Shown here piece by piece: positions 1 through 22,633 of a stretch of 23,337 nucleotides of DNA. This DNA is from a virus, in IMG/VR virus record IMGVR_UViG_3300020371_000060, positions 1 through 23,337 of that record. One strand, written 5' to 3'. The notes under the pieces are model-generated. The model was not told the DNA's origin. It ran no database searches and saw nothing but the letters and a program-made list of their open reading frames with translations. Numbering within the stretch: the stretch's first letter is position 1; each line of letters opens with the position of its first letter. A program made the position numbers and the translations under genes.

Positions 1-3000
1 TCATACACTTCATCTGAAGCAGATATTAAATACTCTACATCTTCCAGAACTACCAGTGGTTCTATTGAAGACTTATTGGTTGTCGATCCTGGTGTAAGAT
101 ATTCCAAACTTCCTGGTATTACTTCAGTTACAAGTGATAATGGAGAGGGTGCTATCTTAGAATTAGATACTGAAACTATTGGCAATGTAGTATCTTATGA
201 GATACAAAATATTGGTTTTGAGTATTCTGCGGATAGTACACTACGTCCTACTGCAAAACTTCCACAACTCTTAAGAGTTTCTCCATTTTCAAGTTTTGAT
301 CATATCGGAATTTCCTCAGTAGGAAGATTCTACACAATTGCACCAGATCTTATTGTTCTGGACTCTCTTACCAATAGTGTTATTCGTGATGTTGATCTGA
401 AATATGACCTTGGCGATAAAGAAGTAACCATTCTTAAGAATACAAAAGGAATTACTGATATTGAACCAGTAGTTATTCCTATTAATAATACTAATGGTGT
501 TGGTATCAACTCCATGACTTTTGATTATGTAACACAAGAAGTAACAGTTGGTCTTGCGGTAAGTTATAGCGATGCAGCAGATTATCCTTTTGTTGTTGGG
601 GATAAAGTTCTCATTGAAAACACAAGTGTTGGTATCGGATCTACCCAAAGAGGATATAACTCTTCTGCATATGGATATGCTAGGTTTACATTAACATCAA
701 TTGATCCAAATATTGGTGGCGCAAATGGAACTGTAACTTATAGTCTTGACGATTATCTCACATTTGGTGAAAATCCAGGCACATTTAACCTAACATATTC
801 TTCTGGTACAATTACTCCAGAAAAATTCTTCCCAGTATTTGATATTTCTCTTAAAACTAACATTTTCCCTAAAGGAGAAACTGTAGTATCTGGAGAAAAT
901 ACCGGTATTGTTGAGCATTGGGATAGTCTTAATAAAATATTGAAAGTTTCAAGTAAGGATTCTTTCTCTGAAGGTCAATATATCACTGCAGAAGACTCTC
1001 AAAATCAAGGTTTCATCATTTCTGTTGATGAATATGACGCAATTTACACAGTTTCTTCAAATTCCGTCGTTAGACAAGGTTCACACACTGAAAGAGGATT
1101 CTTAAACAACAGTTTCCAAAGAATTCATGATAATGACTACTACCAATACTTCTCATATTCACTCAAATCTAAGATTGAGTATGAAGATTGGAATGATGCT
1201 GTAAGTAGTATGAACCACACTGCTGGATTTAAGAAGTTCAGCGACTTGATTGTTGAATCTCAGGATGGTGGAGACTTCTCAGGCATATCAACTGCTCAAA
1301 ATGAAGGAGACTTCTCTGGACTTGCTGATTTTATCAGTGTTATGGACGTAGAATGCGTCAATGACTTTGATCTTGCGACAGAAAGGACCCTCACTATTGG
1401 TTCAGACTTGATTTCTGACGAAATTGTCTTCAATTCCGCCATTTTACAAGATTATTTTGAGTCTGTTGGAAACAGAGTTCTTATTATTGACGACTTTAGT
1501 GATCGTTTCAACAGTACACCCAGAAATACTCGTTTTGTCGCTGTTGGAACCTTTGATCTTGATACTGCAAATGCACGTAAATTCATTACTTTTGTCAGAG
1601 ATAGAAGATTTACAGCAGAAAGGCAAATTTACTTGGTAACTCTACTTCATGATGAAACTTACGGTTATATTAACCAATATGGTAGAGTTGAAACTGTTGC
1701 TGAGTTGGGTTCATTTGACTTCTCAATGTCTGGTGACCAAGGAGTTCTTGAATTCTACCCAATTGAATACCGAGTCAATAACTTTGACGTAACTTATGTC
1801 TCATATAACCTGAAAGACACTATTTCGGGTGTTGGGTCAACTGTATTGGGTGATGTTGTTGAACTTAAAGTTTCAAATGCACTGATTTCTGCTGGTTCTA
1901 CTGCTGCAAACACTATTGTTGGAATTGAAACCTCAAATACGGCATCTAAAGTCCTCGTTGAAATTGCTGGAACTGACGGAAGCTACTATGAGTTCAATGA
2001 GGTGATGATTCTCCACGATGGAACAGATGTTGGGTTCATTGATTATGGACAAATCGTAAGTTCTTCTGGTGCAACATCATCTTCTGGTATTGGAACGTAT
2101 CATGTTGAGTATTCTGGTTCTAATATTAACCTTGTATTGACTCCAACCGTTGGTGCAGGTGTTTCTTACGTCGTCAATACGATGCAAGTCTCCATTGCTA
2201 ACACAGCATCAACTGGTATTGGAACTGAGGACTTGAACACTGGTATTCTGGAATCCTCCTACACATCTATTGCAGCGTCGGGTTCACCTTCTCAGACGAC
2301 TATTGCCGAATATGACAACTCTGCATACAATGTTGCATATTACATCGTATCTGTAGAAGATACAACTAACTCAAATACTCAAGTATCTGAAGTTGTTGTT
2401 GCAGATGATGGAAGTTATGCATCTATCACTGAGTTTGGTCAGTTATACTCCGATGCAAGTCTCGGCACTATTGATGCAGGACTTTCTGGTTCAACAACAC
2501 AACTCTACTTCACACCAAATGCAGGAATAGACGTTCAAGTCAGAGTATTCCAAAATGCAGTCGGTGACATCAATGAGGAATCTACAAATGACTTCATTGA
2601 CCTTACAAGTGGTTCTGTTGATACCAGCTTTGCTATTTACAGAGGAACTGAAAGTGATGTTAGAAGAGAGTTTGTCTTAACTCACGACGATCTTCCGATA
2701 TTTGAGCGTTACTTTGATGGTAGTGATGTTTCTATTGCAAATACGACCACTGATAGAATTACGATTCCAAATCACTTCTTTGTAACGGGTGAAGAGATTT
2801 CATATACTCATTCTGGAGCAGGAACAACTCAAGCAATCGGTATTGCACCAACAAATATTGTTGGTTTTGGACTTACCGATAAACTTCCATCTACATTATA
2901 TGCAGTTAAGGTTGATGACCTTCATATCAAACTTGCAGGAAGCGCAGAGAATGCTCTTGCTGCATTACCATCAACTCTTAATTTAACTCACGTTGGTATT

Positions 3001-5962: not shown

Positions 5963-8900
5963 ATGGCAAAGTTAGGAATAAATACAGGTTCTGCGCCCGA
6001 TGCTGGAGATGGCGATAGTCTCCAGCAAGGTGCTATAAAAATCAATAGTAACTTTGATGAGGTTTACACTTTGCTTGGAGATGGCAGTGCGCTGGCTCCT
6101 GGTATTGTAACCTCTATCGTTGGTGGAAATAATGTACAAGTATCTTCATCTACTGGTCAAGTTACCGTAGATGTTTCAGGTAGCACTTGGGGTGAAAATT
6201 CTACTGGTATTCATACTTTATCCAATGTTGGTATTGGTACAACTAATGCAACGGATGAACTTAAGGTCTCTGGAACTGTAAAGACAGATCAATTGGTTGT
6301 TGTTGGTGTTTCTACATTCCAAAATGATGTAAACTTTGAATATGACCTGGTAATTGGAGAAGATGCTGCTCTTGAAAGAAACCTGAAAGTCACTGGTGTT
6401 TCTACTTTTGTTGGAGAATCTAATTTTGATGATAGTGTTTTAATTGCTGGTATTACTACTTGTAGCAATGACCTTGATGTATCTAATGATATTGTCGTCG
6501 GGGGTGGAGTTTCAGTAGCTGGTGTTTCTACATTTACCAATAGTGTAAATCTTAATGATGGTGCAACAATTCCAGCAGGAGACAGTCTTGATTTTGGAAC
6601 TGATTTTTCAATCTCTAGATTTAGTAATCAGAATAAAGCACGTATTCAGTATACTGGTCCTGGTGATTTCACTTTTGAAATAGATGATGTTGATTTTAGA
6701 AATAGTGGAAATACTGAAACTCTTATGACCCTTAGAGATGGGGGAGGAGTAAGTCTTTACTATAACAATAACCAAAAACTTGTTACCACAAACACTGGTG
6801 TAACAGTTACAGGAGCAGTTAATGCAACCTCATTTGTAGGTGATGGTTCTGGACTGACTGGTATTAATGCTACTGGAACAGGAGTTTCTATATCTGATGG
6901 TGGTTCTTTTATCGGCGTAGCATCAGCAATCAGCTTCGGCAATAACTTATCAGTATCTCCTATCTCTGCGGGTATTGTTACTATAACTGGTCAAGCTGGT
7001 GGTGGTTCAACTGCTGATGTAAGAACTAATACTCTATCTGTTGCAGGTGTTTCTACATTTACGGGTTACACTACATTTGGAAATCATGTTTCACTAGGGG
7101 ATAATGATGAAATAAGACTTGGTTCTGGTGACCTGATGAAGATGTACTATTCTAGTGCAGGAGACGTTGGTGCATTTGTTCAAAGTCTTAATAGTGATCT
7201 TCATTTGATAGGTTCTACCAGTGGTGGTGTACGCATTATAACTTACAACCAAGATTCTCTTGTTGCGAACCGACTTGGTTCAGTTGACCTATATCACAAT
7301 GGTTCCAAGAAATTTGAAACCACAGGATATGGTGTTACAGTCACCGGTGGTTTGAGTGTTTCTGGTATCTCTACAATTAATGGGAATATTATTGTTGGAC
7401 ATAATCCGAGTACTCAGGGAAGTGGGTCTATTCTAAAAGCTAACGAACTTAATCTTACTGGTCCTAATAGCAGTGATTCAAACTCTACTTATTATAGCAA
7501 TATTAGAGCAAATAAAGTCGGTGGTGGGTTTAAATATGATATAGAATTCCATTCCAATGGTTATTCTTCTGGTGACATTGGTGACTTCATCTTCTATACA
7601 AGAAACACAGGTTTCCAAAGAACCGAAAGAATGAGGTTGACTGGCGAAACTGGAAAACTGACCGTAACTGGTGATGGTAATTTTGGTGGTAGTTTAATAT
7701 CTTCTTATACAGGTAATACAAAAACATATACAGTAACCACTGCTTCTAAATCATCAGCACACAGATATAATGGAACAGGAAGTGGAACTGGATATCTTAT
7801 TGATGGAGTCCAAGCACCATTCTTAACACTCACACCTGGAAAAACTTATAGATTCACAAACGATAATACAGGTTCTCATCCGCTCAAGTTCTATCTTGAG
7901 GCAGATAGGACTACTGAATACACAACAGGTGTAACTTTTGACAATTCTTATACTGAGATAACAGTATCAGACACTACTCCACAAGTTCTTCATTACCAAT
8001 GCACTAACCATGCATATATGGGTAATGCAGTTTATACAAATGCAAATAAGGTACAAACTCCATATAGTGCCTCTGTTGGAGCAGGTTCATCTGTTAATGG
8101 AATTGATTCTCCTGCACTTACATTATCTCATAATAACCCAATTATCACTGGAACTGCAGGAACCACTGGTGAAATTAAGCAGATTGGTGGAACACCATTC
8201 TATTATGATGGAAGTTCTTGGAGAGAGTTCGTTCTTTCTTCGGGAACGCCAGTAACTGTCCCCGCAGATACCGAGTGGGATAATGTTATCTATAGAAACA
8301 CTTTTGATAGTAACTTTGTAGACGCAAAGTTTAATGTAAATGGAACAGTTGGTGGTGGTATTACTGTTGCAGGATCTCCAGTTAAAATCGGAGGAGGTGC
8401 TTTACGTATTGATGGAAGTGCTAAGTGTGGTGTAGAATATGCAAACAGAAGTGAGTATAGCTTTACAGGTTCGTGGACTATTGAGGGTTGGATTTATTTT
8501 GATGGACCTCCATCAACAAGTCGATACCACTCGTTAGTTAGTATGCTTGGCAATGGGGCCACCGAGTGGACATTTGGATATTATACTACTACAGGCAATA
8601 ATGTCGTCTTCCAGTTTGCAAATGAGGTCTCTAGTAGTGGAAAGAATGTTGGCATTGTTCTTTCTACTGATCGTGCGTCTAACTGGGATTATCAATGGAA
8701 CCACATTGCTTTGGTTAGAGAAGGTGATAGCGGTCGTTTCCACTTCTATATTAATGGCGTAGAACATGAGTATACCGCAGATAATATTGTTAGTGATAAT
8801 GATATTGAAAATAATGAGGGTAATAAACTGACTATTGGTGCTGATCCAGTAAACTCATTTTCTCTAATAAACGGTATTTATTGGAATAATGGTTATACTG

Positions 8901-9343
8901 CAGATGTTTACCTCGATGACTTAAGAGTTAGTGCAGGTGTTGGAACTGCTGGTCAAAGATACACTTCTATTGGATCTTCTACCGCACAAGTATTCACACC
9001 ATCAACTGTTGCACTTCCTACTACTGGAACACTTTCATCTATTACTAACCCACCAGGTGATAAATATGGTGAAATTGTTCTTGGAGGAACTCCTTCTTGG
9101 GTTGGAACATCAGGCGTCACTGTAAGTCAGCAGTCTTCTGGTAACTATCGTTTGACCTTTACAACATCTTATACCAACAGTAATGATTACTTTGCATTAG
9201 CACAAGCGATGGATCAAGGTTTTGCTTCATACGTTGGTGTTGCGAGATCTACAGATCATGTTGATTTCTCAGTCAATAGACAGAGTAATGATGCTGCTGT
9301 TGATACTGGTTCACTCTCAGTTCAGATTAAAAATCACATTTGA
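5963..9343 (+). CDS. Tail-fibre-like protein with cupredoxin-like and LamG-like domains
   Basis: The product has 1126 residues. The N-terminus (MAKLGINTGSAPDAGDGDSL, then a segment with INSNFDEVY) looks like the attachment end of marine T4-like fibre proteins. Residues about 80-300 are a beta-rich stalk built from VxGVSTF-type repeats, followed by YYNNNQK and GDGSGLTGI motifs common in such fibres. Residues about 587-697 resemble a small cupredoxin, and about 805-995 resemble a LamG/concanavalin-A-like lectin (SWTIEGWIYF, WNHIALVREG, YLDDLRV). The C-terminal ~130 residues are unassigned. The ATG at 5963 follows an AATAAATA motif and a weak A-rich ribosome site. The likely role is adhesion to the host surface, with the lectin domain suggesting glycan binding; this is inference from domains. 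The gene lies between the gene-7-position gene and gp8, which are adjacent in T4. Confidence 0.8.
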   Translation: MAKLGINTGSAPDAGDGDSLQQGAIKINSNFDEVYTLLGDGSALAPGIVTSIVGGNNVQVSSSTGQVTVDVSGSTWGENSTGIHTLSNVGIGTTNATDELKVSGTVKTDQLVVVGVSTFQNDVNFEYDLVIGEDAALERNLKVTGVSTFVGESNFDDSVLIAGITTCSNDLDVSNDIVVGGGVSVAGVSTFTNSVNLNDGATIPAGDSLDFGTDFSISRFSNQNKARIQYTGPGDFTFEIDDVDFRNSGNTETLMTLRDGGGVSLYYNNNQKLVTTNTGVTVTGAVNATSFVGDGSGLTGINATGTGVSISDGGSFIGVASAISFGNNLSVSPISAGIVTITGQAGGGSTADVRTNTLSVAGVSTFTGYTTFGNHVSLGDNDEIRLGSGDLMKMYYSSAGDVGAFVQSLNSDLHLIGSTSGGVRIITYNQDSLVANRLGSVDLYHNGSKKFETTGYGVTVTGGLSVSGISTINGNIIVGHNPSTQGSGSILKANELNLTGPNSSDSNSTYYSNIRANKVGGGFKYDIEFHSNGYSSGDIGDFIFYTRNTGFQRTERMRLTGETGKLTVTGDGNFGGSLISSYTGNTKTYTVTTASKSSAHRYNGTGSGTGYLIDGVQAPFLTLTPGKTYRFTNDNTGSHPLKFYLEADRTTEYTTGVTFDNSYTEITVSDTTPQVLHYQCTNHAYMGNAVYTNANKVQTPYSASVGAGSSVNGIDSPALTLSHNNPIITGTAGTTGEIKQIGGTPFYYDGSSWREFVLSSGTPVTVPADTEWDNVIYRNTFDSNFVDAKFNVNGTVGGGITVAGSPVKIGGGALRIDGSAKCGVEYANRSEYSFTGSWTIEGWIYFDGPPSTSRYHSLVSMLGNGATEWTFGYYTTTGNNVVFQFANEVSSSGKNVGIVLSTDRASNWDYQWNHIALVREGDSGRFHFYINGVEHEYTADNIVSDNDIENNEGNKLTIGADPVNSFSLINGIYWNNGYTADVYLDDLRVSAGVGTAGQRYTSIGSSTAQVFTPSTVALPTTGTLSSITNPPGDKYGEIVLGGTPSWVGTSGVTVSQQSSGNYRLTFTTSYTNSNDYFALAQAMDQGFASYVGVARSTDHVDFSVNRQSNDAAVDTGSLSVQIKNHI
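6305..7378 (+). repeat. GVSTF repeats of the fibre stalk
   Basis: The DNA word GGTGTTTCTACATT(T/C) or close variants recurs at 6305, 6395, 6449, 6521, 7046 and 7364, always in frame, encoding G(V/I)(S/T)T(F/C/I). The first four are spaced 90, 54 and 72 bases apart (30, 18 and 24 residues), all multiples of six residues. This fits a regular beta-structured shaft such as those of trimeric fibres; trimerisation is inferred. Confidence 0.65.
7721..8053 (+). other. Cupredoxin-like domain in the fibre protein
   Basis: Residues about 587-697 of the fibre begin with KTYTVTT, pass through LTPGKTYRFTNDNTGSHPLKF and end with LHYQCTNHAYMGNAVYTN. H639 in GSHPL together with C680, H683 and M686 forms a complete set of type-1 copper ligands. 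The C-x2-H-x2-M spacing is that of amicyanin. The long strand-loop-strand character with a His in the early loop and Cys/His/Met in the last loop also fits the fold. Copper binding is not shown by sequence alone; the residues may be structural or may bind another metal. Confidence 0.55.
8375..8950 (+). other. LamG / concanavalin A-like lectin domain in the fibre protein
   Basis: Fibre residues about 805-995 show the order typical of Laminin_G_3 / ConA-like domains: a GGGALRIDGSAK strand, W838 in SWTIEGWIYF, a central strand pair, WNHIALVREG, FYINGVE, and a closing YLDDLRVSAGV near 983-993. In this superfamily the jelly roll often binds sugars and calcium. Here it probably gives the fibre a carbohydrate-binding tip region, which is inference. 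Confidence 0.7.
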
Positions 9344-9391: not shown

Positions 9392-10945
9392 ATGTCTGCA
9401 ATAATTACTGATCAACTTAGGATATTGAATGCAAAAAGTTTTGTATCTGCGGCTACCACGGATACAAATGCTTTTTATGCATTTGTTGGTCTTCCTAATG
9501 CATCGGACTATAGTTCTACATGGGAAACTACTCCTCCTGCTCCTAAAGATAACTTTGAGCAGGAGAATGATTATTGGGATACGATGATTGCGTTGAAAAA
9601 AGTCAACGATGGAGATGTGAAGCAAGTTGTAAAGAAGAACACCTGGACTTCTGGTACAACTTATGACATGTATCGTCATGATATTAGTAGAACTAATACT
9701 TCAAAACCATCAGGTGCAACTAGTTTATATAATGCAAACTATTACGTTGTAAACGAAGACTTTAAGGTTTATATTTGTCTTCAGAATGGAACTAACCCAG
9801 AAAACCCAACTGGAAGACCTTCTTTAGACCAACCAACTTTTACTGACTTAGAACCAAGAACTGCTGGTGATAGTGGTGATGGATATCTTTGGAAATATCT
9901 TTATACTATCAAGCCAAGTGATATTGTAAAGTTTGACTCTACAAACTTTATGCCAGTTCCAAGAGACTGGGAAACGAATACAGAAGATGCTTCCATCAGA
10001 AACAACGCTGAAAATAGCGGTCAACTGAAAATTATTACTATCACTAACCGTGGAGTTGGTGTTGGAACTGCAAATAGAACTTATACTAAAGTTCCCATTA
10101 AAGGTGATGGAAGTGGTGCAGAAGCAACTATCGTTATTAACAATGAGTCAAAGGTAGACTCTATTACCTTATCTAAAGGTGGAAGTGGTTATACTTATGG
10201 TAGTGTTGACTTAGAAACTGCAAATGTTCCAACAGGAACTACTAGACCAACTTTTGATGTTATCATTCCTCCTCAGGGTGGACACGGAGCAGATATCTAT
10301 AGAGAACTTGGAGCATATAATGTTCTTGTATACTCAAGAATTGAAAATGATGAAGAAAACCCAGACTTCATCACTGGAAACCAGATTGCAAGAATTGGTA
10401 TTGTAGAGAACCCAGAACAGTTTGGTAGTTCTTTACTTTTATCTGAGGCAAAAGCAAGTGCTGTTTATGCATTGAAACTTGTGGGTGCTGGTTATAGCAC
10501 TGCATCATTCTCAGCAGACTCATACATCACTCAAACGATTGGTGTTGGTTCTACTGCTGTTGGTAGAGTAGTTTCTTATGATGAAAATACTGGTGTTCTT
10601 AAGTATTGGCAGGACAAGTCATTAGTTGGTTTTAATACTGATGGTTCTCAAAACAATGCACCAACATATGGTTTTGAACTGAATAGATTTACAGCATCTC
10701 CTGCGGCAGGTGGTTCATTAAATATTGTCGGTGGCAGCGTCACTTTAGGTATTCAAACTACATTTAGCGGTGTCTCAACCACAATAAATAGTAGGACATA
10801 TTACCTTGGTCAAACATTTACTGAAGGGGTATCGAATCCAGAGGTTAAAAAGTATTCTGGAAATATAGTATATGTTGACAATAGACCTTCAATTACAAGG
10901 TCTGCGAATCAAAAAGAAGATATCAAAGTTATTTTGCAGTTCTAA
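9392..10945 (+). CDS. gp8: Baseplate wedge protein gp8
   Basis: The 517-residue product matches T4 gp8 in several places. G162-D-G-Y165 followed by LWKYLYTIKPSDIV corresponds to GDGYVWEYLFEIPPDV in T4. The C-terminus (NRPSITRSANQKEDIKVILQF without its last residue is visible at about 497-516) corresponds to the T4 ending with NRPPI and a short beta tail. In T4, gp8 forms a dimer in each baseplate wedge and binds gp10, gp7 and gp6. T4 gp8 is 334 residues; the extra length here includes a Gly-Tyr repeat segment around 225-290 (GGSGYTYG at 263-270) and a VVSYDENTGVLKYW segment near 395. The start at 9392 follows the tandem AATAAATA motif; the next gene starts six bases after the stop. Confidence 0.9.
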   Translation: MSAIITDQLRILNAKSFVSAATTDTNAFYAFVGLPNASDYSSTWETTPPAPKDNFEQENDYWDTMIALKKVNDGDVKQVVKKNTWTSGTTYDMYRHDISRTNTSKPSGATSLYNANYYVVNEDFKVYICLQNGTNPENPTGRPSLDQPTFTDLEPRTAGDSGDGYLWKYLYTIKPSDIVKFDSTNFMPVPRDWETNTEDASIRNNAENSGQLKIITITNRGVGVGTANRTYTKVPIKGDGSGAEATIVINNESKVDSITLSKGGSGYTYGSVDLETANVPTGTTRPTFDVIIPPQGGHGADIYRELGAYNVLVYSRIENDEENPDFITGNQIARIGIVENPEQFGSSLLLSEAKASAVYALKLVGAGYSTASFSADSYITQTIGVGSTAVGRVVSYDENTGVLKYWQDKSLVGFNTDGSQNNAPTYGFELNRFTASPAAGGSLNIVGGSVTLGIQTTFSGVSTTINSRTYYLGQTFTEGVSNPEVKKYSGNIVYVDNRPSITRSANQKEDIKVILQF

Positions 10946-10951
10946 AGAATC

Positions 10952-13900
10952 ATGCCACAGGAAACAAATCTCAACGTCTCTCCTTATTTTGATGACTTTA
11001 ATCGTGATAATTCATATTATAGAGTCTTATTCAAGCCTGGGTATCCGGTTCAAGCAAGAGAACTGACCACAATGCAGTCCATGCTGCAGAATCAGATTGA
11101 GCAGTTTGGAAATCATACATTCAAAGAGGGATCAGTTGTTATTCCTGGACAGTTAAGTTACAGGAATGACCTGAGTTATGTAAAACTTGAAAATATTTTC
11201 CAGGGTATTCCTGTAGAAGCTAACTTACCATTTATTCCTGAGCAGGAAATTCGTGGTCAGACTAGTGGAGTTACTGCTGTTGTTGAGAGATTTGTCTCCA
11301 CAAATAGTGGCGCTGAGAACACAACTCTTTATGTTAGATATCTTTCTTCTGGTTCTGATAACTCCCAGGAGACTTTCTTGGATGGAGAGAACCTTGAGAT
11401 TATCAATGAACTGAATATTACTGATCCTGCCGATAGTGAGTTTGCAAGTTTCCAAGCAGGAGAAGTTTTTGCAACTGTAAAAGCACAAGATGCTACAGGT
11501 CCTGGATCTGGTGTTGCAATTCAAGAAGGGGTATATTTTTTAAGAGGAACTTTTGTAGATATTAATGAGGACTTTTTGTTCCTTGAAGAATATTCTAACG
11601 TTCCAAGTTACAAAGTTGGTTTTAAAATATTTGAAGAGATTGTCAATTCATATGAAGACCCAAGTCTGAATGACAATGCGAAAGGTTTTTCAAACTACGC
11701 AGCACCAGGTGCAGATAGATTCAGAATATATGCTCAACTTACAAAAGTAGAATTAGATAGCACTGATACTGATAACTTTGTAGAACTTGCAGAAATTAGA
11801 GATGGTAATCTTATCACTATCTCAAATACTCCTGAATATAATATCTTATCAGAAGAGTTTGCAAAAAGAACTTATGATGAGTCCGGTGACTATTATGTAA
11901 AGGCACCTAATGTTACTGCCAAAGAAACTTTAAATAATTTAAAAGGCAATAACGGTGTATTTAATGAAGAACAAGTAACTTACAACGGCAATACTCCAAG
12001 TGAAGACCTTGGAACGTATGAAATTGCCCCAATGACGGCATACGTTCAGGGTTTTGAAGTAGAAACTCTGAGTCCTGTATTTTTAGACTTTGATAAACCA
12101 AGAGAAACAAAAGAATTAGAAAATCAAAGTATTAACTACTTCACAGGACCAACATTTACACTCAACAGAGTTTATGGTTCTCCAAATATTGGTATCGCAA
12201 CTGGATATACAGTATCTTTGAGAGATGAAAGAGTTGGTGCATCTCAAACCACTGCACCTGGCACTGAAATCGGTCTTGCAAGAGTATATGACTTTGCATT
12301 AGAGTCTGGTTCATATAGTGCATCTAACCCAGATGAAAACCAATGGGACATTGCACTTTATGATATTCAAACTTATATTGATATTGAGTTAAACGAACCC
12401 ATTTCTCTGAGTGTTCCAACTCACGTAAAAGGTAGAGAAAGTGGTGCAGTTGGTTTCTTGCGTTATGATACTAATGATAGCAGACAGTTTACTGTATATA
12501 ACACCAAAGGTTCATTCTCTCTTGGAGAAAAACTGATCTTTGACGGTATTGAAAATACTAGAGTTTCAACAGCAGTAACGGCAAAAGGTATTGGTGATGT
12601 AAAGGCTGTCCACGGAATGGTTGGTAGTGGATACACATTTACTGGCGATACTGTACAGTCATCTCGCTTCTCAATCGGTCAAGTTAACATCACAGGTAAC
12701 AGTGGAGGTATCAGTACGGTATCCGCAGCAAATGCTATCTTTGTTGGTATCGCAACTGTCGGAAACCTTGTAGCGTTCTCAAACCCAGGTTTAACCGTAA
12801 ACACATTTGCAAGAATTGAGTCAGTTTCTCTCAACTCTCTGACCATCAGTGGAGTTACAACAGTTACTGATGTTGCTGATGGCGGTCTTCCTACTTCTGA
12901 TATCAACCCATCAGACTTTAGAATACTGACCACAAGACTTCAGTCTTCTACTGATAATACTCTTTATACTCCATTACCTAAGCAAAACGTTGCTAACGTT
13001 GACTTAACAGAGTCAAACTTGAGCATTAAGAAGCAGTATGATGTAACTATTACTGCTAACTCAACTGGTGCTATCAATGCGGGACCAAACCTGACATTCT
13101 TACCTTATGATGAAGAAAGATATACTTTAATTGGCGAGGATGGAACAACTGAAGAGTTGAGTCCTGATAAGTTGGTCTTTACCAATGGTTCTCAGACTCT
13201 TACCTTCATCGGTTTGAGTGGTGCAGGAGATGCTAAGTTAATTGCATCACTTAGAAAAACCACTGTAAAAGAGAAGAAGAAAATTAAGTCCAGAGCACAG
13301 ACTATTGTTATTGATAAGTCTAAGTATTCTGCTTCTGGTATTGGTGCAACTACTCTTAACGATGGTCTTACTTATGGTAACTATGCATATGGTACAAGAG
13401 TACAGGATGAAGAAATTGCATTACTCAAGCCAGATGTAACTAAACTGAATGGTATTTTTGAGTCTAGTGGAACTGGCGATCCTGAGTTACCTTCCATTAT
13501 TGTTTCTTCTTTAGATGGTCCTACAAATAAGACAAATGATCTTATTCTTGGAGAAGAGTTTATTGGTTCTTCTAGCGATGCAATCGGTATGTTTGCAGAG
13601 CGTGTCAATGACCTGAAGTTGTCATTCATTAATCTGAATAATAACAGATTTACTGATGGCGAAGAAATTACATTCAAAGAATCTGGTATCAAAGGATTTA
13701 TATCTTTGGTTGATGACGGTGATACCAATATCACTTCTTCATATACTTTAGACAATGCTCAGAGAAAAACTATCTATGATCAGTCCAGAGTAGTTAGAAA
13801 GACTGGAGTCAGTGAACCAACCAGAAAACTGAAAATTGTATTTGAGTCTGCTACTTTTGACGCGGCAGATGATGGTGATATTACTACTGTTAACTCATAT

Positions 13901-16255
13901 GAGCAGTTCCACTACTGCAACATTCCAGAAGTAAATGGAATTAGTAATGCTGATATGATTGATATCAGACCAAGAGTTTCAACTCCTGATATCACAGAAA
14001 ACGCTAGATCTCCTTTTGAGTTCCTTTCTAGATCTTTTACGCAACAAGGAAACTCGGCAGCAAACGTATTAGCATCTGATGAGTCTTTTGTAATAAAATA
14101 TTCTTTCTATCTTCCAAGAATTGACAAGATATACCTTACAAAAGATGGTATTTTCCAGGTAAACCAAGGTGTTCCTGCAGAAAACCCACAGGAACCAGTT
14201 GGAAGTGATGATGCTTTAGAGGTAGCAACTGCAATTTTACCAGCATACCTCTGTAATGTTGATGACGTTGTGCTTGACGTAACTCAGCACAAGAGATATA
14301 GAATGCAAGATATTGCAAAACTTGAGGACAGAATTAAGAACCTTGAGTTCTATACTGCATTGACTCTTCTTGAGGTTGACACTCAAAATATGCTTATCCG
14401 TGATGCTAACGGATTGAATAGATTCAAGGCTGGTTTCTTTGTTGATGATTTCTCATCAACTCTTGTACAGAAGAAAGTTACGACTGTTAAGAATAGTATT
14501 GATATTGGAGAAGGCGAGTTAAGACCAACACACCATACAACCTCTATTGACCTGTTACTTGGAACCAATGCTCTTGCTGGTATTGGAACTAATGTAAATC
14601 CATTGGCAGATGGTAGAACTGATACAAGTCTCGTTGGTTCTGGTGTTAAAAGAACTGGACAAGTAGTCACTCTTGACTATGAAGAAGTCAGTGCAATAAC
14701 ACAACCATATTCAACCAGAGTTGTAAATGTAACTCCATATGCTGTAGGTTTCTTTGGTGGTTCTATTTCTCTCTTCCCATCATCTGATGTTTGGGTCGAT
14801 CAGGTAAGAGTTGCACCTAAGACTATCATCGCAGAAGGAAATTACACTAAGACTCTTTATCAGTTGTCTGAAGAAGGGTTTGATAAGCAAACTGGTCTTG
14901 GTCCTGTAACGTGGGGTTCTTGGGAGACTGTTTGGACCGGTGAGTCCAAGACTACATCTACAAGAGAAGTCACTAGAAACTATCAAGTTATTGAAGAGAC
15001 TATTGAAACGACCACCAAGACTGGTACTAAGTCTAGAACGGGAACAAGAAGAGCACTTAAAGAAGAGTTTGATAACAATTCTTTTGGAGATCAAGTTCTC
15101 AGCAGTCAAGTAATTCCTTATGTAAGGTCTAGAAACGTTGAATTTACTGCTAAGAAGATGAAACTCTTTACAAGAGTTTATCCATTCTTTGATGGTGTTG
15201 ATGTCAGTAAGTACATCATTCCAAAGTTACTCCAAGTCACTATGACTCAGGGAACATTCCAGGTAGGCGAAACAGTTCACGGTTCTTTCAATATTCCTGG
15301 TCTTCTTCATTCATCTTACATTAGATTTAGAGTCGCTACACCAAATCATAAGTATGGTCCATATAATGCACCAAATGATGTCTTTACAACAAATCCATAT
15401 GATCAGACATTGACCATACCAGATGCATATTCAACAACTTCAACAATATTGAACGTTGATACTTATAGTCTGGCAAACCAACCACAAGGTCAGTTCTATG
15501 GTAGTGTTGAAGTTGGTATATCACTTAGAGGTCAAACAAGTGGAGCAGAAGCAACACTTGATAGTATGGCACTTGTAACCGACCACGTTGGTACACTTAT
15601 TGGTTCTTACTTTATTCCAGATCCCAATATTCTAACGAATCCCAAGTTTGAAGCGGGAACTAAGTTGTTTAGACTTACTAGTAGTGATACAAACGCTCAG
15701 ATTCCTGGTGCTGCAACAACTAGTGCAGAAGAAAATTATTTCGTAGAAGGTAAGGTTAACACCGTACAAGAACAAATAATTTCTATTAGAAATGGTAAGG
15801 TTGTAACAGAAAAACCAGTTGAAACTGAAAATGTATCTAAGGAGGAAACACCTGTCGTAATTGATAGTAAGGTTCTTAGAAATCTCCCAAGACCTGCACC
15901 TAGTTCTGGTGGCGGTGGCGGCGGTGGTGAAAAAATCTACCGAGGTATTGCGACTGGTTACATTGTCGCAACAGGTACTTATGGTACTGTTAACCAGAAT
16001 GCTGGTAACTACTCACCATGGAGAGCATCACAAGGTCAACCAGCAGTTATCTCACAACCTGCTATTGGACAAGGTGCTATCCAGAGAGCGGTTTCAAATG
16101 GATACTCACCATCATCTATTAGAGCTTGGATGAGTCAACCTGGCGTTATCGTGGGTCCATGGGCAGCTGCCTGGGCAAGAAGTGATATCAACCTTAAGAA
16201 GAACATCGCTCCTATTGATAATGCTCTAAATAGATTGATGAATATATCTCTTTGA
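10952..16255 (+). CDS. DUF4815-type virion structural protein ending in a truncated S74 domain
   Basis: The product has 1767 residues. The N-terminus (MPQETNLNVSPYFDDFNRD, then GYPVQARELTTMQS and EQFGNHTFKEGSVV) is typical of DUF4815 proteins, large structural proteins of T4-like marine phages. Other recognisable parts are SGA-type turn modules (about 96-150, 497-545, 1525-1545), KLEDRIKNLEFYTALTLLEV near 1120, and RVYPFFDGVDVSKYI near 1408. After about 1600 the protein becomes low-complexity, with seven Gly at 1653-1659 and a Gly/Gln/Pro-rich stretch. S1744-D-I-N-L-K1749 then opens a peptidase-S74 chaperone domain, which stops after 24 residues at TGA 16253-16255. The ATG at 10952 is six bases after the gp8 stop. 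A baseplate or fibre-network role is inferred from family and position. Confidence 0.8.
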   Translation: MPQETNLNVSPYFDDFNRDNSYYRVLFKPGYPVQARELTTMQSMLQNQIEQFGNHTFKEGSVVIPGQLSYRNDLSYVKLENIFQGIPVEANLPFIPEQEIRGQTSGVTAVVERFVSTNSGAENTTLYVRYLSSGSDNSQETFLDGENLEIINELNITDPADSEFASFQAGEVFATVKAQDATGPGSGVAIQEGVYFLRGTFVDINEDFLFLEEYSNVPSYKVGFKIFEEIVNSYEDPSLNDNAKGFSNYAAPGADRFRIYAQLTKVELDSTDTDNFVELAEIRDGNLITISNTPEYNILSEEFAKRTYDESGDYYVKAPNVTAKETLNNLKGNNGVFNEEQVTYNGNTPSEDLGTYEIAPMTAYVQGFEVETLSPVFLDFDKPRETKELENQSINYFTGPTFTLNRVYGSPNIGIATGYTVSLRDERVGASQTTAPGTEIGLARVYDFALESGSYSASNPDENQWDIALYDIQTYIDIELNEPISLSVPTHVKGRESGAVGFLRYDTNDSRQFTVYNTKGSFSLGEKLIFDGIENTRVSTAVTAKGIGDVKAVHGMVGSGYTFTGDTVQSSRFSIGQVNITGNSGGISTVSAANAIFVGIATVGNLVAFSNPGLTVNTFARIESVSLNSLTISGVTTVTDVADGGLPTSDINPSDFRILTTRLQSSTDNTLYTPLPKQNVANVDLTESNLSIKKQYDVTITANSTGAINAGPNLTFLPYDEERYTLIGEDGTTEELSPDKLVFTNGSQTLTFIGLSGAGDAKLIASLRKTTVKEKKKIKSRAQTIVIDKSKYSASGIGATTLNDGLTYGNYAYGTRVQDEEIALLKPDVTKLNGIFESSGTGDPELPSIIVSSLDGPTNKTNDLILGEEFIGSSSDAIGMFAERVNDLKLSFINLNNNRFTDGEEITFKESGIKGFISLVDDGDTNITSSYTLDNAQRKTIYDQSRVVRKTGVSEPTRKLKIVFESATFDAADDGDITTVNSYEQFHYCNIPEVNGISNADMIDIRPRVSTPDITENARSPFEFLSRSFTQQGNSAANVLASDESFVIKYSFYLPRIDKIYLTKDGIFQVNQGVPAENPQEPVGSDDALEVATAILPAYLCNVDDVVLDVTQHKRYRMQDIAKLEDRIKNLEFYTALTLLEVDTQNMLIRDANGLNRFKAGFFVDDFSSTLVQKKVTTVKNSIDIGEGELRPTHHTTSIDLLLGTNALAGIGTNVNPLADGRTDTSLVGSGVKRTGQVVTLDYEEVSAITQPYSTRVVNVTPYAVGFFGGSISLFPSSDVWVDQVRVAPKTIIAEGNYTKTLYQLSEEGFDKQTGLGPVTWGSWETVWTGESKTTSTREVTRNYQVIEETIETTTKTGTKSRTGTRRALKEEFDNNSFGDQVLSSQVIPYVRSRNVEFTAKKMKLFTRVYPFFDGVDVSKYIIPKLLQVTMTQGTFQVGETVHGSFNIPGLLHSSYIRFRVATPNHKYGPYNAPNDVFTTNPYDQTLTIPDAYSTTSTILNVDTYSLANQPQGQFYGSVEVGISLRGQTSGAEATLDSMALVTDHVGTLIGSYFIPDPNILTNPKFEAGTKLFRLTSSDTNAQIPGAATTSAEENYFVEGKVNTVQEQIISIRNGKVVTEKPVETENVSKEETPVVIDSKVLRNLPRPAPSSGGGGGGGEKIYRGIATGYIVATGTYGTVNQNAGNYSPWRASQGQPAVISQPAIGQGAIQRAVSNGYSPSSIRAWMSQPGVIVGPWAAAWARSDINLKKNIAPIDNALNRLMNISL
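15908..15928 (+). other. Poly-glycine linker
   Basis: Seven consecutive Gly codons (GGT/GGC only, residues 1653-1659) make a short GC-rich island in AT-rich DNA. It separates the DUF4815-type body from the Gly/Gln/Pro-rich stretch and the S74 start, and probably marks a flexible domain border or an old insertion joint. Confidence 0.7.
16226..16232 (+). promoter_or_regulatory. Possible late-promoter-like motif inside the DUF4815 gene
   Basis: CTAAATA followed by G lies in coding sequence, 25 bases before the ATG at 16258. The same word and a similar distance occur before gp13 (19258) and gp15 (22630). It could serve the small S74 ORF, but one short AT-rich word can occur by chance. Confidence 0.25.
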
Positions 16256-16257
16256 TA

Positions 16258-16506
16258 ATGATAGAAAAGATAATGAACATAAGTGGAAATAGTTATGAAT
16301 GGAATGAAGATATGAAAAACTTGACTGGTAGAACTGGAGTTCATCATGGAGTATTAGCTCAGGAAGTTCAAAAAGAATTTCCTGAGATGGTTATGAAAGG
16401 TAATGACGGTTATCTTCGTGTCGATTACATTCAACTCATTCCTGTTATGATTGAAGCAATAAAAGAGTTAAAACAGGAAATAGATCAACTTAAACAAGAT
16501 AAATAA
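16258..16506 (+). CDS. C-terminal part of S74 chaperone domain as a separate small ORF
   Basis: The 82-residue product starts MIEKIMNISGNSYEWN and carries the conserved S74 elements GVLAQEVQKEFPEMV (31-45), DGYLRVDY (50-57) and a C-terminal amphipathic helix (IPVMIEAIKELKQEIDQLK) that forms the trimeric coiled coil in known S74 chaperones. It lacks the Ser-Lys cleavage dyad, which is encoded at the end of the previous gene. The ATG at 16258 is two bases after the upstream TGA (TGATAATG), fitting coupled reinitiation; an in-frame ATG at 16273 and a TTG at 16252 are alternatives. No good ribosome site is seen. It may act in trans as a split chaperone, be joined by frameshifting, or be a non-functional remnant. 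The coding frame is well preserved, which argues for recent splitting or continued use. Confidence 0.7.
   Translation: MIEKIMNISGNSYEWNEDMKNLTGRTGVHHGVLAQEVQKEFPEMVMKGNDGYLRVDYIQLIPVMIEAIKELKQEIDQLKQDK
16498..16505 (+). promoter_or_regulatory. Late-promoter-like motif before the 834-residue protein
   Basis: GATAAATA overlaps the stop codon of the S74 ORF (16504-16506) and ends 25 bases before the ATG at 16531, in the same arrangement as the motif before the fibre gene. Confidence 0.4.
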
Positions 16507-16530: not shown

Positions 16531-19035
16531 ATGAGAGTCGTAGATCCACTAGCACAATCATTTTATGTTGAGGAACCAACAGGTATCTTCGTAACCTCTA
16601 TTGATCTGTTCTTTTATTCAAAAGATGAGACTTTACCGGTAACGGTTCAACTCAGACCAATGGAGTTAGGTCTCCCTACTACAAAGTTGTATCCTTTTAG
16701 TGAAGTTGTCATTGACCCCAAAGACATTGAACTTTCAGACGATGCAACTGTTCCTCACAGGGTAACATTTGAATCTCCAGTTTACTTGAGAGGAGATACA
16801 TTCCATTCTGTCGTCATCCTCTCAAACTCTGATAAGTATAATGTTTGGGTTTCTAAGTTGGGTGAAATTGATATTACGAATCAGTCTGGACCAGAGTCTA
16901 AGCAAATCTTTGTAGCAAAACAACCTCTTCTTGGTGGATTATTTAAGTCTCAAAATGCTTCTACTTGGAACGAGTCACCATATGAAGACTTAAAATTCAC
17001 TCTTTACAGAGCAAACTTTACAGAAACATCTGGCAACTTCAACTTATATAACCCAGAACTTGGAGTTGGTAATGGTCAGATTGCAACATTACTCCCCAAC
17101 TCACTGGAGTTTTCATCAAAAAGAATTCGAGTTGGTTTAGGAACTACAGTTCAGGATAGTGGTCTTGAACTTGGAAATACAGTTCTTCAACTAGCATCAA
17201 ATGCAACAGGTAACTATGTTGGTTCTGCTGGAACTTCAACTGGAGACCTGAGAATTATTAATGCAGGTATTGGATTCACACCATCTCTTGGAAATTCTGT
17301 TTACACTGGTGTTGCTCTAACAAGCATCACTGGAACAGGTAGAGATGCAACAGCAGATATTACTATCACCAATGGAGTAGCAGTTGCTGCAACGGTAAGA
17401 GCAGGTGGTACTGGATATGTTGTTGGTGATGTCTTAACTGCAACACAAATTGGTTCACAAGCACTTGGAAGAAACTTACAGTTATCAGTTCAAGGTTTAA
17501 GTGGAACAAATGAACTGATACTTGATAATGTTCAAGGAGACTTTATTACTGGTGCAGCAAGTACTGTTCAATATACAAATAGTTTAGGTGTTACGACTTC
17601 ACTTAATGCATCTATTGGTGCAAATGTAACTATTCCTGCTGATGGTATCCAAACAATAACTGATGGTCTGCACTTTAAAGTCAACCATAAGAACCACGGA
17701 ATGCACGCCGGTGAAAATATCGTAACGATATCTGGTGTATTTGGTGAAGTAAAACCAATCAAACTAACTGCTGGATATAGTAACACTGAAACTGGCGATA
17801 TTCCTGTAAATGATACCGTAAACTACTCAACTTTTGAGAATGTTGGAGTAAGCAGCACTAATCCTGGATATGTTCTGATTGGTGAAGAAATAATTGCATA
17901 TGAAGGAGTTACTGCTAGTACTCTCACAGGTGTTACTAGAGAAATAGATCAAACAAAGGCATTTACATACACTGAAAATACTTTAGTCTACAAGTATGAA
18001 ATTGATGGTGTTTCTCTGAGAAGAGTCAATACAAATCATACTCTTCAAGACTCAACTGTCGCTGATGATATTGAACTTGACTACTATCACGTCAAGATTG
18101 ATATGTCACAAGATGGTAAGACTGATCCATTACCAAATGGACAAGTTGATAGAAGTGTTGGAACAGTGTTTCCTAAACTGTATATCAATGAGTCTAAGTC
18201 TACTGGTGGTAACACAGTCAATGCAACTCAGAACATTCAGTTTGAGATTGCAAGACCAAATATTCAGGTGATGTCTCTTAATGGCACAAACGTTAGTGCA
18301 AAAACCAGAACAATATCTGGAACCAGTGTTGATGGCGAAGAGTTCTCCTTTATTGATAAAGGATTCAATGATATTAGCCTTAACGCTAACAACTATTATG
18401 ATTCACCAAGACTCATTGCTTCCAAAGTAAATGAAGATGAGAGACTTGATACTCTTCCAGGCAATAAGTCTCTGAATGTCAACCTTCAACTCTCTTCAGC
18501 AAACCCAGTTCTATCTCCACTCGTTGACTTAGATAGAGCAGCAATGATTCTGGTAACCAACAGAATCAATAGTCCTATTGAAAACTATGCAACTGATAAT
18601 AGAGTTGCAACACTCAGAGAAGATCCATCGGCATTTGTCTATGCTACTAGCACTATTGAACTTGAAGTTCCTGCAACTTCACTGAGATGTATGGTTGCTG
18701 CTTATGTCAACACTTCTAGTGACTTGAGAGCATTGTATGCTCTTCAGAATGATCCATCCGAAGAAGCAATTTACTATCCATTCCCAGGTTATTCAAACTT
18801 GAATAGTTTGGGTCAAGTAGATAATCCTTCACTGAGTGATGGTACTCCAGATAAGAAGACACCAAAAACTGATGTCTTAGGTTTTGAGAGTCCTGAACTC
18901 ATCTTCCGCGACTATGAGTGGAATGTTGATAATCTGGCACCATTCAGATACTTCAGTATTAAGTTGATTGGTTCTTCTACTAACCAAGCATTCCCACCAA
19001 GATTCAGAGACTTTAGAGTTATTGCACTTGCTTGA
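16531..19035 (+). CDS. Virion structural protein, resembling the C-terminal half of DUF4815 proteins
   Basis: The 834-residue product starts MRVVDPLAQSFYVEEPTGIF and continues through VTSIDLFFYSKDETLPVTVQ and HSVVILSNSDKYNVWVSKLG. From memory of this family, a DPLAQ(S/T)F...(G)xFVTSxDLFF segment normally follows the DUF4815 body in the same polypeptide; here it opens a separate gene almost exactly at that border. Later parts include a Gly-Tyr repeat (GGTGYVVGDVLT, 292-303), a turn module (LIGEEIIAYEGV near 449-460), and a C-terminal block with CMVAAYVNTSSDLRALY ending in RFRDFRVIALA. No signal peptide or membrane segment is seen. It is probably a baseplate-periphery or fibre-network component that associates with the product of the 10952 gene; this is inference from family architecture. 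Confidence 0.75.
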   Translation: MRVVDPLAQSFYVEEPTGIFVTSIDLFFYSKDETLPVTVQLRPMELGLPTTKLYPFSEVVIDPKDIELSDDATVPHRVTFESPVYLRGDTFHSVVILSNSDKYNVWVSKLGEIDITNQSGPESKQIFVAKQPLLGGLFKSQNASTWNESPYEDLKFTLYRANFTETSGNFNLYNPELGVGNGQIATLLPNSLEFSSKRIRVGLGTTVQDSGLELGNTVLQLASNATGNYVGSAGTSTGDLRIINAGIGFTPSLGNSVYTGVALTSITGTGRDATADITITNGVAVAATVRAGGTGYVVGDVLTATQIGSQALGRNLQLSVQGLSGTNELILDNVQGDFITGAASTVQYTNSLGVTTSLNASIGANVTIPADGIQTITDGLHFKVNHKNHGMHAGENIVTISGVFGEVKPIKLTAGYSNTETGDIPVNDTVNYSTFENVGVSSTNPGYVLIGEEIIAYEGVTASTLTGVTREIDQTKAFTYTENTLVYKYEIDGVSLRRVNTNHTLQDSTVADDIELDYYHVKIDMSQDGKTDPLPNGQVDRSVGTVFPKLYINESKSTGGNTVNATQNIQFEIARPNIQVMSLNGTNVSAKTRTISGTSVDGEEFSFIDKGFNDISLNANNYYDSPRLIASKVNEDERLDTLPGNKSLNVNLQLSSANPVLSPLVDLDRAAMILVTNRINSPIENYATDNRVATLREDPSAFVYATSTIELEVPATSLRCMVAAYVNTSSDLRALYALQNDPSEEAIYYPFPGYSNLNSLGQVDNPSLSDGTPDKKTPKTDVLGFESPELIFRDYEWNVDNLAPFRYFSIKLIGSSTNQAFPPRFRDFRVIALA

Positions 19036-20116: not shown

Positions 20117-22633
20117 ATGCTTAACCCATTTTTTCAACAAGGTTCAAAAACAGAACAGTCTTTAATACAAGACTTAATTAATGAACAACTCCGTATGTAT
20201 GGAGTTGAGGTATATTATATTCCAAGAAAATATGCCACGACAAATACAATAATAAGAGAAGTTATTGAGTCTAAGTTTGACAATGCATATCCTATTGAGG
20301 CATATGTTAATACTTATGAAGGATATGAAGGACAAGGAACTATCCTATCAAAGTTTGGTGTTCAACCTTTAGATGATCTGACACTTACGATATCTAAAGA
20401 AAGATTTGAAAACTATATTACTCCTCTGACAGAAAGTTTACCAAATATTGAACTTTCAACTAGACCGAAAGAAGGAGACTTAGTATATTTTCCATTGGGA
20501 GATAGACTGTTTGAAATTAAGTTTGTAGAACACGAAAAACCATTCTATCAACTTCAGAAGAACTATGTTTATGAACTGACTTGCGAACTCTTCAGATATG
20601 AAGATGAAGTTCTGGATACTGGCGTTGATGAGATTGATGATAATATCAAGGACGAGGGTTACATTCAAACTCTTACCCTTGTTGGAACTGCAGTAACGTC
20701 AACAGCAAATACATATATCGTTTACAGTGGAGTAAGATCTATTACTCTATCCAATAGAGGAGATGGATATTCTTCAGCACCTAGAGTTGCTATTTCTTCT
20801 GCACCAAGTGGAGGAATAACTGCTGTAGGTGTTGCAACTATGATTGGAGACTTGGTTGATTGTACTGGCGATAAGGGAGCATCCAAGGTTCAGGGTGTAG
20901 AATTAGTAAATGCAGGTTCTGGGTATACTGTTGCACCGTCAGTAGCATTCTTCGGCGGTGGAGGAGCAGGAGCAGCAGCCACAGCGTCTATTGGAACAGG
21001 TGTTGTAGGTATTGTTACTGTAATAGGTGGTGGTTCTGGATATACAACTTCTCCAGCAGTAACATTTAGTATGCCAAAACACGTAGGAGCTGCTGCAACT
21101 GCGGTTTTAAATTATCCAATAGTTGGTGGAGGTGTAAGTGTTGTTTCAGCACCAATTAGTATTGGAGGAACTGCATTCCTTTTCCCAGGAGGAACAACTG
21201 GAGGTGTATTTTATAGAACTGCACCAACAGTTACTTTTTCCTTACCAACAGGCACTGGAAATGCTGCAGAAGCAGTTGCAACTTTAGATAACATATCACA
21301 AACTGGAGGAACAGTAAAAACTCTTGGAATTACAACAGGAGGTAAATTCTATACTAGTACTCCAACTGTAATAATTGAACATCCAGGTACAAGTTACGCT
21401 ACAGCGACAGTTGGACTTGCTGGAAGTAGCATAGATCCAGGTTCAGTTGCTTTCTCAACGACTGGTAGAGCATATAGAACTAGACCTAATGTTGCTATTA
21501 CAACATCTGGCAACATGCTTCCTCCGTATCAACAGGCTGTTGGTATTGCAACAATTCATCCAATTACAGGTATCGTTACTGCAGTTTCCTTTGATGTTTC
21601 TGATCCATGGGCAGTAGGTACAGGAGCAACAGTTGGTTCAGGTTATACAGTTGCACCTAACATAGTTTTCTCTGGTGACACTGCAGCAACAAGGGCAACT
21701 GCAACAGTTACAGTTTCTATTGCTGGTACGGTGAATTCCATCAGTATTGGAAATAGTGGATATGGTTATATCACAACACCTACTGTTACTATTGGTCCAT
21801 CTCAAGGTGGTGATGAACAGTTTAGAGCACTTGGTATTGCAACCATTAGGGCAACTTCGATAAAAACTCAAGGAACAATTGGTATTGGATCAGATACTAT
21901 TACTGGAGTTACTACAACCAATATCGTTGTTGGCGATAGAGTTAGATTGGGTGTTGGTTACAGTGATTATTACAATTTCATTCCTTCAGATACATTTGTT
22001 ACTTCTATTGGTTCTAGTACTATATCCATTAATAATGCGGCAACTAATGTTGGTATAGCAACTTCAGTCTTTGAATTTGGTAGAGAAAACTGTGGTATTG
22101 TCACTGGAATCGCAGTTACATATGGAGGTGGAGGATATTTAGCACCACCAACAGTTACCATCAGTAATGAAGTATCTGAGAAAAATTATATAGATTTCCC
22201 AGGAATATCAACCGCAACTGGAACAGCAGTTGTCAATGATGGAGGAACTGTAACTCAAATTAATATTCTTGATGGTGGTTACGGATATACAGTCATACCA
22301 GAGGTAACTGTCGCTGCACCTGTTGGTTCTGGTTCTACTATTGGTATTGGTACGTTTATCTATAATGAGACCGTTACAGGAAGTGTAAGTGGTAATACTG
22401 CTCGCGTAAGAGAGTGGAATGCTGATACTACGAAACTTGAACTTGGAAACGTGACTGGTGATTTCGTACCAGGAGATGTTATAACAGGTGAAACTTCTGG
22501 TGCAATTTATAAGGTTAGAGTTGTTAACACAGATAACCTTGTTGATCCATATGCTCAGAATGATATCTTTGAATCTGAAGGTGATGCTATCCTCGACTTC
22601 ACTGAGGGCAACCCATTTGGAACTCCTTCCTAA
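20117..22633 (+). CDS. gp14: Neck protein gp14 with a long beta-repeat insertion
   Basis: Residues 1-~188 match T4 gp14 closely: MYGVEVYYIPRKY (T4 MRGVECYYVPREY), EAYVNTYEGYEGQGTILSKF (T4 AYLNSFEGYEGQKSFFSNF), RPKEGDLVYFPLGDRLFEI (T4 PKEGDLIYFPMDNSLFEI) and KPFYQLQKN. T4 gp14 has 256 residues; this one has 838. The added part, about 200-735, consists of ten Gly-Tyr beta-repeats. It is followed by an SGA-type module (about 750-804) and a tail (810-838, PYAQNDIFESEGDAILDF then NPFGTPS) that looks like the normal gp14 C-terminus. The extra domain is therefore an insertion before the tail and not a simple C-terminal extension. With gp13 the protein should form the neck; the repeats may project as a collar-like decoration, which is inference. 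Confidence 0.9.
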   Translation: MLNPFFQQGSKTEQSLIQDLINEQLRMYGVEVYYIPRKYATTNTIIREVIESKFDNAYPIEAYVNTYEGYEGQGTILSKFGVQPLDDLTLTISKERFENYITPLTESLPNIELSTRPKEGDLVYFPLGDRLFEIKFVEHEKPFYQLQKNYVYELTCELFRYEDEVLDTGVDEIDDNIKDEGYIQTLTLVGTAVTSTANTYIVYSGVRSITLSNRGDGYSSAPRVAISSAPSGGITAVGVATMIGDLVDCTGDKGASKVQGVELVNAGSGYTVAPSVAFFGGGGAGAAATASIGTGVVGIVTVIGGGSGYTTSPAVTFSMPKHVGAAATAVLNYPIVGGGVSVVSAPISIGGTAFLFPGGTTGGVFYRTAPTVTFSLPTGTGNAAEAVATLDNISQTGGTVKTLGITTGGKFYTSTPTVIIEHPGTSYATATVGLAGSSIDPGSVAFSTTGRAYRTRPNVAITTSGNMLPPYQQAVGIATIHPITGIVTAVSFDVSDPWAVGTGATVGSGYTVAPNIVFSGDTAATRATATVTVSIAGTVNSISIGNSGYGYITTPTVTIGPSQGGDEQFRALGIATIRATSIKTQGTIGIGSDTITGVTTTNIVVGDRVRLGVGYSDYYNFIPSDTFVTSIGSSTISINNAATNVGIATSVFEFGRENCGIVTGIAVTYGGGGYLAPPTVTISNEVSEKNYIDFPGISTATGTAVVNDGGTVTQINILDGGYGYTVIPEVTVAAPVGSGSTIGIGTFIYNETVTGSVSGNTARVREWNADTTKLELGNVTGDFVPGDVITGETSGAIYKVRVVNTDNLVDPYAQNDIFESEGDAILDFTEGNPFGTPS
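20759..22310 (+). repeat. Ten Gly-Tyr beta-repeats inside gp14
   Basis: Consensus G-x-x-Y-x3-P-x-(V/I)-x-(I/F/V). The copies in order are GDGYSSAPRVAI, GSGYTVAPSVAF, GSGYTTSPAVTF, GVFYRTAPTVTF, GKFYTSTPTVII, GRAYRTRPNVAI, GSGYTVAPNIVF, GYGYITTPTVTI, GGGYLAPPTVTI and GYGYTVIPEVTV. Each is typically preceded by a V-x-x-(I/V)-x-(I/V) strand and followed by an A/T-rich ATA(T/S)(V/I) strand. Spacing varies, so these are diverged domain repeats and not recent DNA-level tandem copies. Confidence 0.85.

Follow-up and report, generated by a model that had tools for sequence, protein, structure and literature searches.

In the phage genome fragment analyzed here, the peptidase S74 chaperone, or intramolecular chaperone domain (ICA), is divided between two apparently translationally coupled genes, the products of which most likely act in trans. 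The window, that is, the whole stretch of DNA analyzed, is the entire IMG/VR record IMGVR_UViG_3300020371_000060 (23,337 bases), a fragment of a T4-like (Kyanoviridae-type) phage with the gene order of the T4-like baseplate and neck block. The split domain lies at an interruption of VrlC, described as a baseplate component (PMC7029224), and its two pieces are referred to below as the N-tail and the C-half. The relevant features are as follows.

5963-9343: gp9/10-like gene.
9392-10945, plus strand: gp8 homologue, baseplate wedge, 5' neighbour of the VrlC N-part (Pfam Phage-Gp8, 2.8e-13).
10952-16255, plus strand: VrlC N-part, DUF4815 baseplate protein of 1767 aa with the S74 N-tail at its end (Pfam DUF4815, 1.5e-57; phrog_358 positions 1-1415).
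16181-16252, plus strand: S74 N-tail, SDINLKKNIAPIDNALNRLMNISL, 24 aa, with Ser (16181-16183), Lys (16196-16198), the first strand and the first copy of helix 1 (Pfam S74 positions 1-23; a tail of 22-26 aa is kept in the 15 tabulated split loci).
16220-16249, plus strand: helix 1, first copy, NALNRLMNIS, at the N-tail end (alignment with intact S74 domains).
16253-16260, plus strand: putative coupling junction TGA-TA-ATG, that is, stop, 2 nt, start (in all split members, the start lies within -4 to +7 nt of the stop).
16258-16506, plus strand: S74 C-half, a separate 82-aa protein with the second copy of helix 1, the beta core and the predicted trimerising helix 4 (Pfam S74, 3.9e-9; equivalent stretch on the MyRF ICA, 599-696).
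16258-16284, plus strand: helix 1, second copy, MIEKIMNIS, at the C-half start (alignment).
16531-19035, plus strand: VrlC C-part, 834 aa, continuous with the N-part in other phages (phrog_358 positions 1421-2055; one ORF in Kyanoviridae isolates).
3' of the VrlC C-part: two neck proteins, then the sheath stabiliser gp15.

Because PHROG family 358 spans both VrlC parts, these correspond to one protein elsewhere: VrlC is a single ORF of ~2500 aa in the cultured Kyanoviridae SynMITS9220M01, S-B05, S-SCSM1 and S-SSM7, whereas the VrlC of the window is interrupted by the split S74. Both the DUF4815 and the phrog_358 profiles are matched, both VrlC parts match chain 0 of 9EUF, a solved single-chain relative annotated as "DUF4815 domain-containing protein", and the position between gp8 and the neck genes is shared with the Kyanoviridae VrlC. 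Elsewhere in the window, the neck protein ORF at 20117-22633 encodes 838 aa, compared with 472 aa in the related locus L001 (L numbers denote loci), and parts of it match tail-fibre and baseplate PHROGs; the ORF at 1-5934 (1977 aa), open at the contig start, has no Pfam match.

The sequence-only reading of this stretch had placed an S74 domain across two ORFs with the catalytic dyad on one side, and this arrangement was borne out. The long ORF, which ends in the N-tail followed by the TGA at 16253-16255, holds Ser1744 and Lys1749 and stops 24 residues into the domain; the ATG at 16258, two bases 3' of the stop, begins the 82-aa ORF in a different frame, in agreement with the coordinates proposed earlier. 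Against the Pfam Peptidase_S74 profile (PF13884; 58 positions, score cut-off 22 bits), the 82-aa ORF matched positions 17-57 (E 3.9e-9, 37 bits, above the cut-off) and the end of the long ORF positions 1-23 (E 8.9e-4, 19.9 bits, just below the cut-off, which the N-tails of some relatives exceed), so that the profile is matched over both pieces. A profile scan of the whole record recovered the same two pieces, with several profile positions overlapping. The overlap is helix 1, which is single in aligned intact S74 domains and is encoded twice here, once closing the first protein and once opening the second; the previously reported repetition of MNIS in different codons is thus real. The Ser and Lys of the dyad are five residues apart, within an SDxxLK motif present in all split members with S and K invariant, and are equivalent to S587/K592 and S911/K916 (PMC8326128).

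Many metagenomes contain the same split: 16 distinct junction sequences were identified, with identities as low as about 60%, and a chance origin of the arrangement is excluded because 15 distinct junction sequences other than that of the window have the same layout. Split relatives were initially found by searches with the VrlC C-part, and the set was enlarged by searches with the C-half; 15 split loci were tabulated, and the sixteenth, L381, has the same layout. The C-halves of these relatives are 59-96% identical to that of the window. In every split member, the chaperone part is separated from the polypeptide of the client by a stop and a new start, the latter being ATG, once GTG, in some cases within ATGA, GTGA or TGATG overlaps, and the members differ in gap length and in the phase of the second ORF with respect to the first, which can be 0, 1 or 2. 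A start within the observed range in a given other frame is expected by chance near ~20% of stop trinucleotides, so that a start placed there in each of the members carries information, with the caveat that the members are related. No clear Shine-Dalgarno sequence was seen by eye at the split junctions. The geometry of the junction points to termination-reinitiation, by which both proteins would be made side by side.

The variable phase also bears on the reading under which a programmed frameshift, ribosomal bypass or readthrough yields one fused S74 protein. The repeated MNIS could represent take-off and landing sites, 35 nt apart, and the two pieces of L215 share a frame with TAA between them, but no single event fits phases of 0, 1 or 2, differing gaps and a start kept at the stop in every member, so that we regard such recoding as very improbable; as a general explanation, frameshifting or bypass is ruled out by the varying phase. 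That the window is a metagenomic contig could be taken to indicate an assembly chimaera, a sequencing error or a decaying domain, to which we assign a negligible probability given that contigs from many metagenomes share the split and that purifying selection, described below, is strong; assembly error or a fresh indel is ruled out by independent contigs with the same split in all three phases. The 16 distinct junction sequences likewise uphold the earlier judgment that the repeat is neither a fresh duplication nor a sequencing indel, but the recent joint between two different S74 sequences that had been suggested in its place is contradicted by an arrangement that is old and conserved.

In an intermediate set of loci, the domain resides in a longer ORF in 320 of 363 S74 matches, and the short S74 ORFs among those 363, contig ends aside, come only from the split group and one Dyadobacter ORF. 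A search of bacterial and archaeal genomes found S74 domains in longer ORFs, with the exception of one short ORF (L322). This ORF, L322:7812-8084 from Dyadobacter bucti, has no upstream part and could stem from a frameshift or from a split of unrelated origin. In 7 whole records (15-122 kb), the only S74 matches were the two pieces, covering profile positions 1 to 24-32 and 14-16 to 57-58. Among the relatives found, none carries an unsplit, single-ORF S74 at the VrlC locus, and the single-ORF VrlC of more distant relatives has no S74 there. Searches of isolated phages gave no match to the window at the DNA level and none to the N-tail region at the protein level; the C-half matched isolate proteins only below 60% identity (at most 49% among the matches listed), and the match in S-SSM7, the one whose gene context was read, is an intact fibre. 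Some split loci show additional features: in L068 (3241-3327), the C-half has an extra tail of ~28 aa, and in one subclade (L074:3276-3692, L075, L076 and L404:1-339), a small SET-domain (lysine methyltransferase-like) gene, identified by Pfam SET (7.2e-13) for L074 and by eye for the other three, separates the S74 C-half from the VrlC C-part.

Both S74 pieces are under purifying selection. Pairwise dN/dS values are mostly 0.05-0.3 for the N-tail and the C-half core alike, with higher values in a few very close pairs that rest on few changes, and the pooled pN/pS values are 0.24 and 0.25, respectively. All 13 distinct N-tails share S1, D2, L5, K6, N8, I9, I12, L16 and L19. A contig end truncates 6 of the 49 distinct two-ORF VrlC loci, leaving 43 that could be scored (L002, where the tail is cut by the contig start, was counted as having it, and L141, where the C-half overlaps the next ORF, was counted by hand): both pieces are present in 15/43, neither in 28/43 and a single piece in 0/43. 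When the tail is compared over the tree of the VrlC C-part, it differs in at least five independent pairs; in 5/5 of these, the C-half differs in the same way; the state changed at least five times on the tree, each time for both pieces together, and an earlier, smaller tree contained two joint losses within the clade. The sign test over the independent pairs, all five of which agree, gives p 0.0625, five pairs being too few to reach 0.05, and the Fisher value for co-occurrence, 6.6e-12, ignores kinship. Because the split has been kept by evolution, the two pieces very probably work together. Of the "tolerated split" entertained in the sequence-only reading, the split stands, but "merely tolerated" is too weak for pieces that are under purifying selection and are gained or lost together.

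Because both pieces share one frame in L215, where the second start is one codon after the TAA of the first piece, its read-through translation was used as a stand-in for the complex. This artificial chain was modelled as a monomer, from an alignment of 13 C-halves and 44 intact S74 domains (L209 left out), and reached a pLDDT of 88.6 and a pTM of 0.77; mean pLDDT is 96 for the SDIRLKKNII strand (residues 1-10), ~63 for the first helix-1 copy and the joint, and mostly above 90 for the rest. The first eleven Foldseek matches of the model are ICA domains, and VIA-align places residues 26-110 (the C-half) on the MyRF ICA (7dc3, 599-696) with an rmsd of 1.7 over 85 residues and Z 7.8. The ICA fold with its C-terminal trimerising helix is thus present in a predicted model for which the alignment included intact homologues; modelled alone, without intact S74 domains, the C-half gave a poor fold (pLDDT 72), with no match to an S74 structure in the PDB. 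The 599-696 range begins after MyRF S587 and K592, consistent with the N-tail providing these residues. In the MyRF ICA crystal, the cleavage-site "cable" (S587/K592) from a neighbouring subunit threads a donut of beta-strands, helix 1 forms the collar, and helix 4 the trimer core (PMC8326128). Given that the cable comes from the neighbouring subunit, the S74 contact is already one between chains, and this architecture makes the boundary of helix 1 and the beta core a plausible point of division. Most likely, the second ORF adopts the known S74/ICA fold from helix 1 through the trimerising helix, and the N-tail is the catalytic cable.

The following mechanism can be proposed. The C-terminal 24 residues of the VrlC N-part would form the cable, with the cleavage site, the Ser-Lys dyad and one copy of helix 1, and the 82-aa protein would provide the remainder, namely, its own helix 1, the beta donut for passage of the cable and the C-terminal trimer helix. 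The two pieces would associate at the tip of the VrlC N-part, the putative client, and trimerise there, presumably in a 3+3 stoichiometry. An active dyad would cut the bond preceding Ser1744, and the 24-aa tail would then depart with the C-half; the second helix-1 copy may dock the tail on the collar. The full version of this proposal, a naturally split autoprotease-chaperone in which the client contributes the catalytic strand and the 82-aa protein the fold, with assembly and self-cleavage occurring only in trans and the duplicated helix 1 serving as the docking element, is advanced tentatively, as somewhat short of an even prospect.

The client would be unusual because no triple beta-helix is evident in the sequence before the cleavage site and the region is Gly/Pro-rich. 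The tip directly before the S74 tail is hypervariable (window 15860-16180; the same region in L010, L068, L072, L215 and L074), and in relatives that lack S74, the VrlC N-part often ends in a Lys/Arg-rich, Asn-rich or Ser-rich stretch. MyRF cleaves without stalk contacts (PMC8326128). Conservation of the dyad argues for cleavage; caution is warranted because no triple beta-helix that would complete the active centre is evident upstream. The two pieces could instead form a permanent trimer joint or cap, bound in trans at the VrlC-N tip without autoproteolysis, a sub-case of the trans-acting split that we consider rather unlikely: the C-half is not covalently bound, so that its release needs no cleavage, yet the catalytic Ser and Lys are invariant in the 13 distinct tails in which neighbouring residues vary.

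It is still less probable that the C-half serves some other protein on its own, as a small chaperone or trimer module, and that the N-tail is a relic or a device of translational coupling only. The C-half carries the entire fold, helix 1 to helix 4, and separately encoded chaperones resembling S74 exist, but the N-tail is under purifying selection, its dyad is invariant, and the pieces are never found apart at the VrlC locus. The trans-acting split that had been raised from the sequence is the reading that the evidence favours as the most likely one.

The split domain resembles the S74/ICA domains of endoNF, phage T5 pb1, GA-1 gp12 and MyRF (3GW6, 4UW8, 3GUD, 7DC3) in profile, dyad spacing of five, order of helices and strands, and C-terminal trimerising helix. 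Unlike those domains, it is made up of two proteins: the client bears the dyad, a second protein bears the core, and helix 1 occurs once in each. A further difference is that no triple beta-helix is evident upstream. With gp27 of V22 and gp9 of A5, both Alteromonas phages, and the Tfa-like gp25 of Pam3, all described as shaped like intramolecular chaperones (PMC10579305, PMC7289586, PMC9608196), it shares a small chaperone gene directly 3' of that of the client. Those are complete chaperones for which no gene fission is described, whereas here the sequence of the C-half identifies it as S74 and the catalytic strand has stayed on the client, V22 and A5 being compared by description only. By sequence and fold, the domain is a peptidase S74; by gene layout, it is like the separate fibre chaperones of V22, A5 and Pam3. 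In the part of the literature that was searched, we found neither an S74 domain described as split so that the client retains the dyad nor one described as working in trans.

S74 domains have been described as intramolecular chaperones, and a conserved split would place chaperoning, trimerisation and cleavage on two mixable proteins, a simple system for testing the role of each part and a naturally evolved split self-cleaving tag. It suggests how a covalent, disposable chaperone could become separately encoded, as in the V22- and A5-like phages, and the split autoprotease-chaperone, if true, would represent one path by which an intramolecular fibre chaperone becomes intermolecular.
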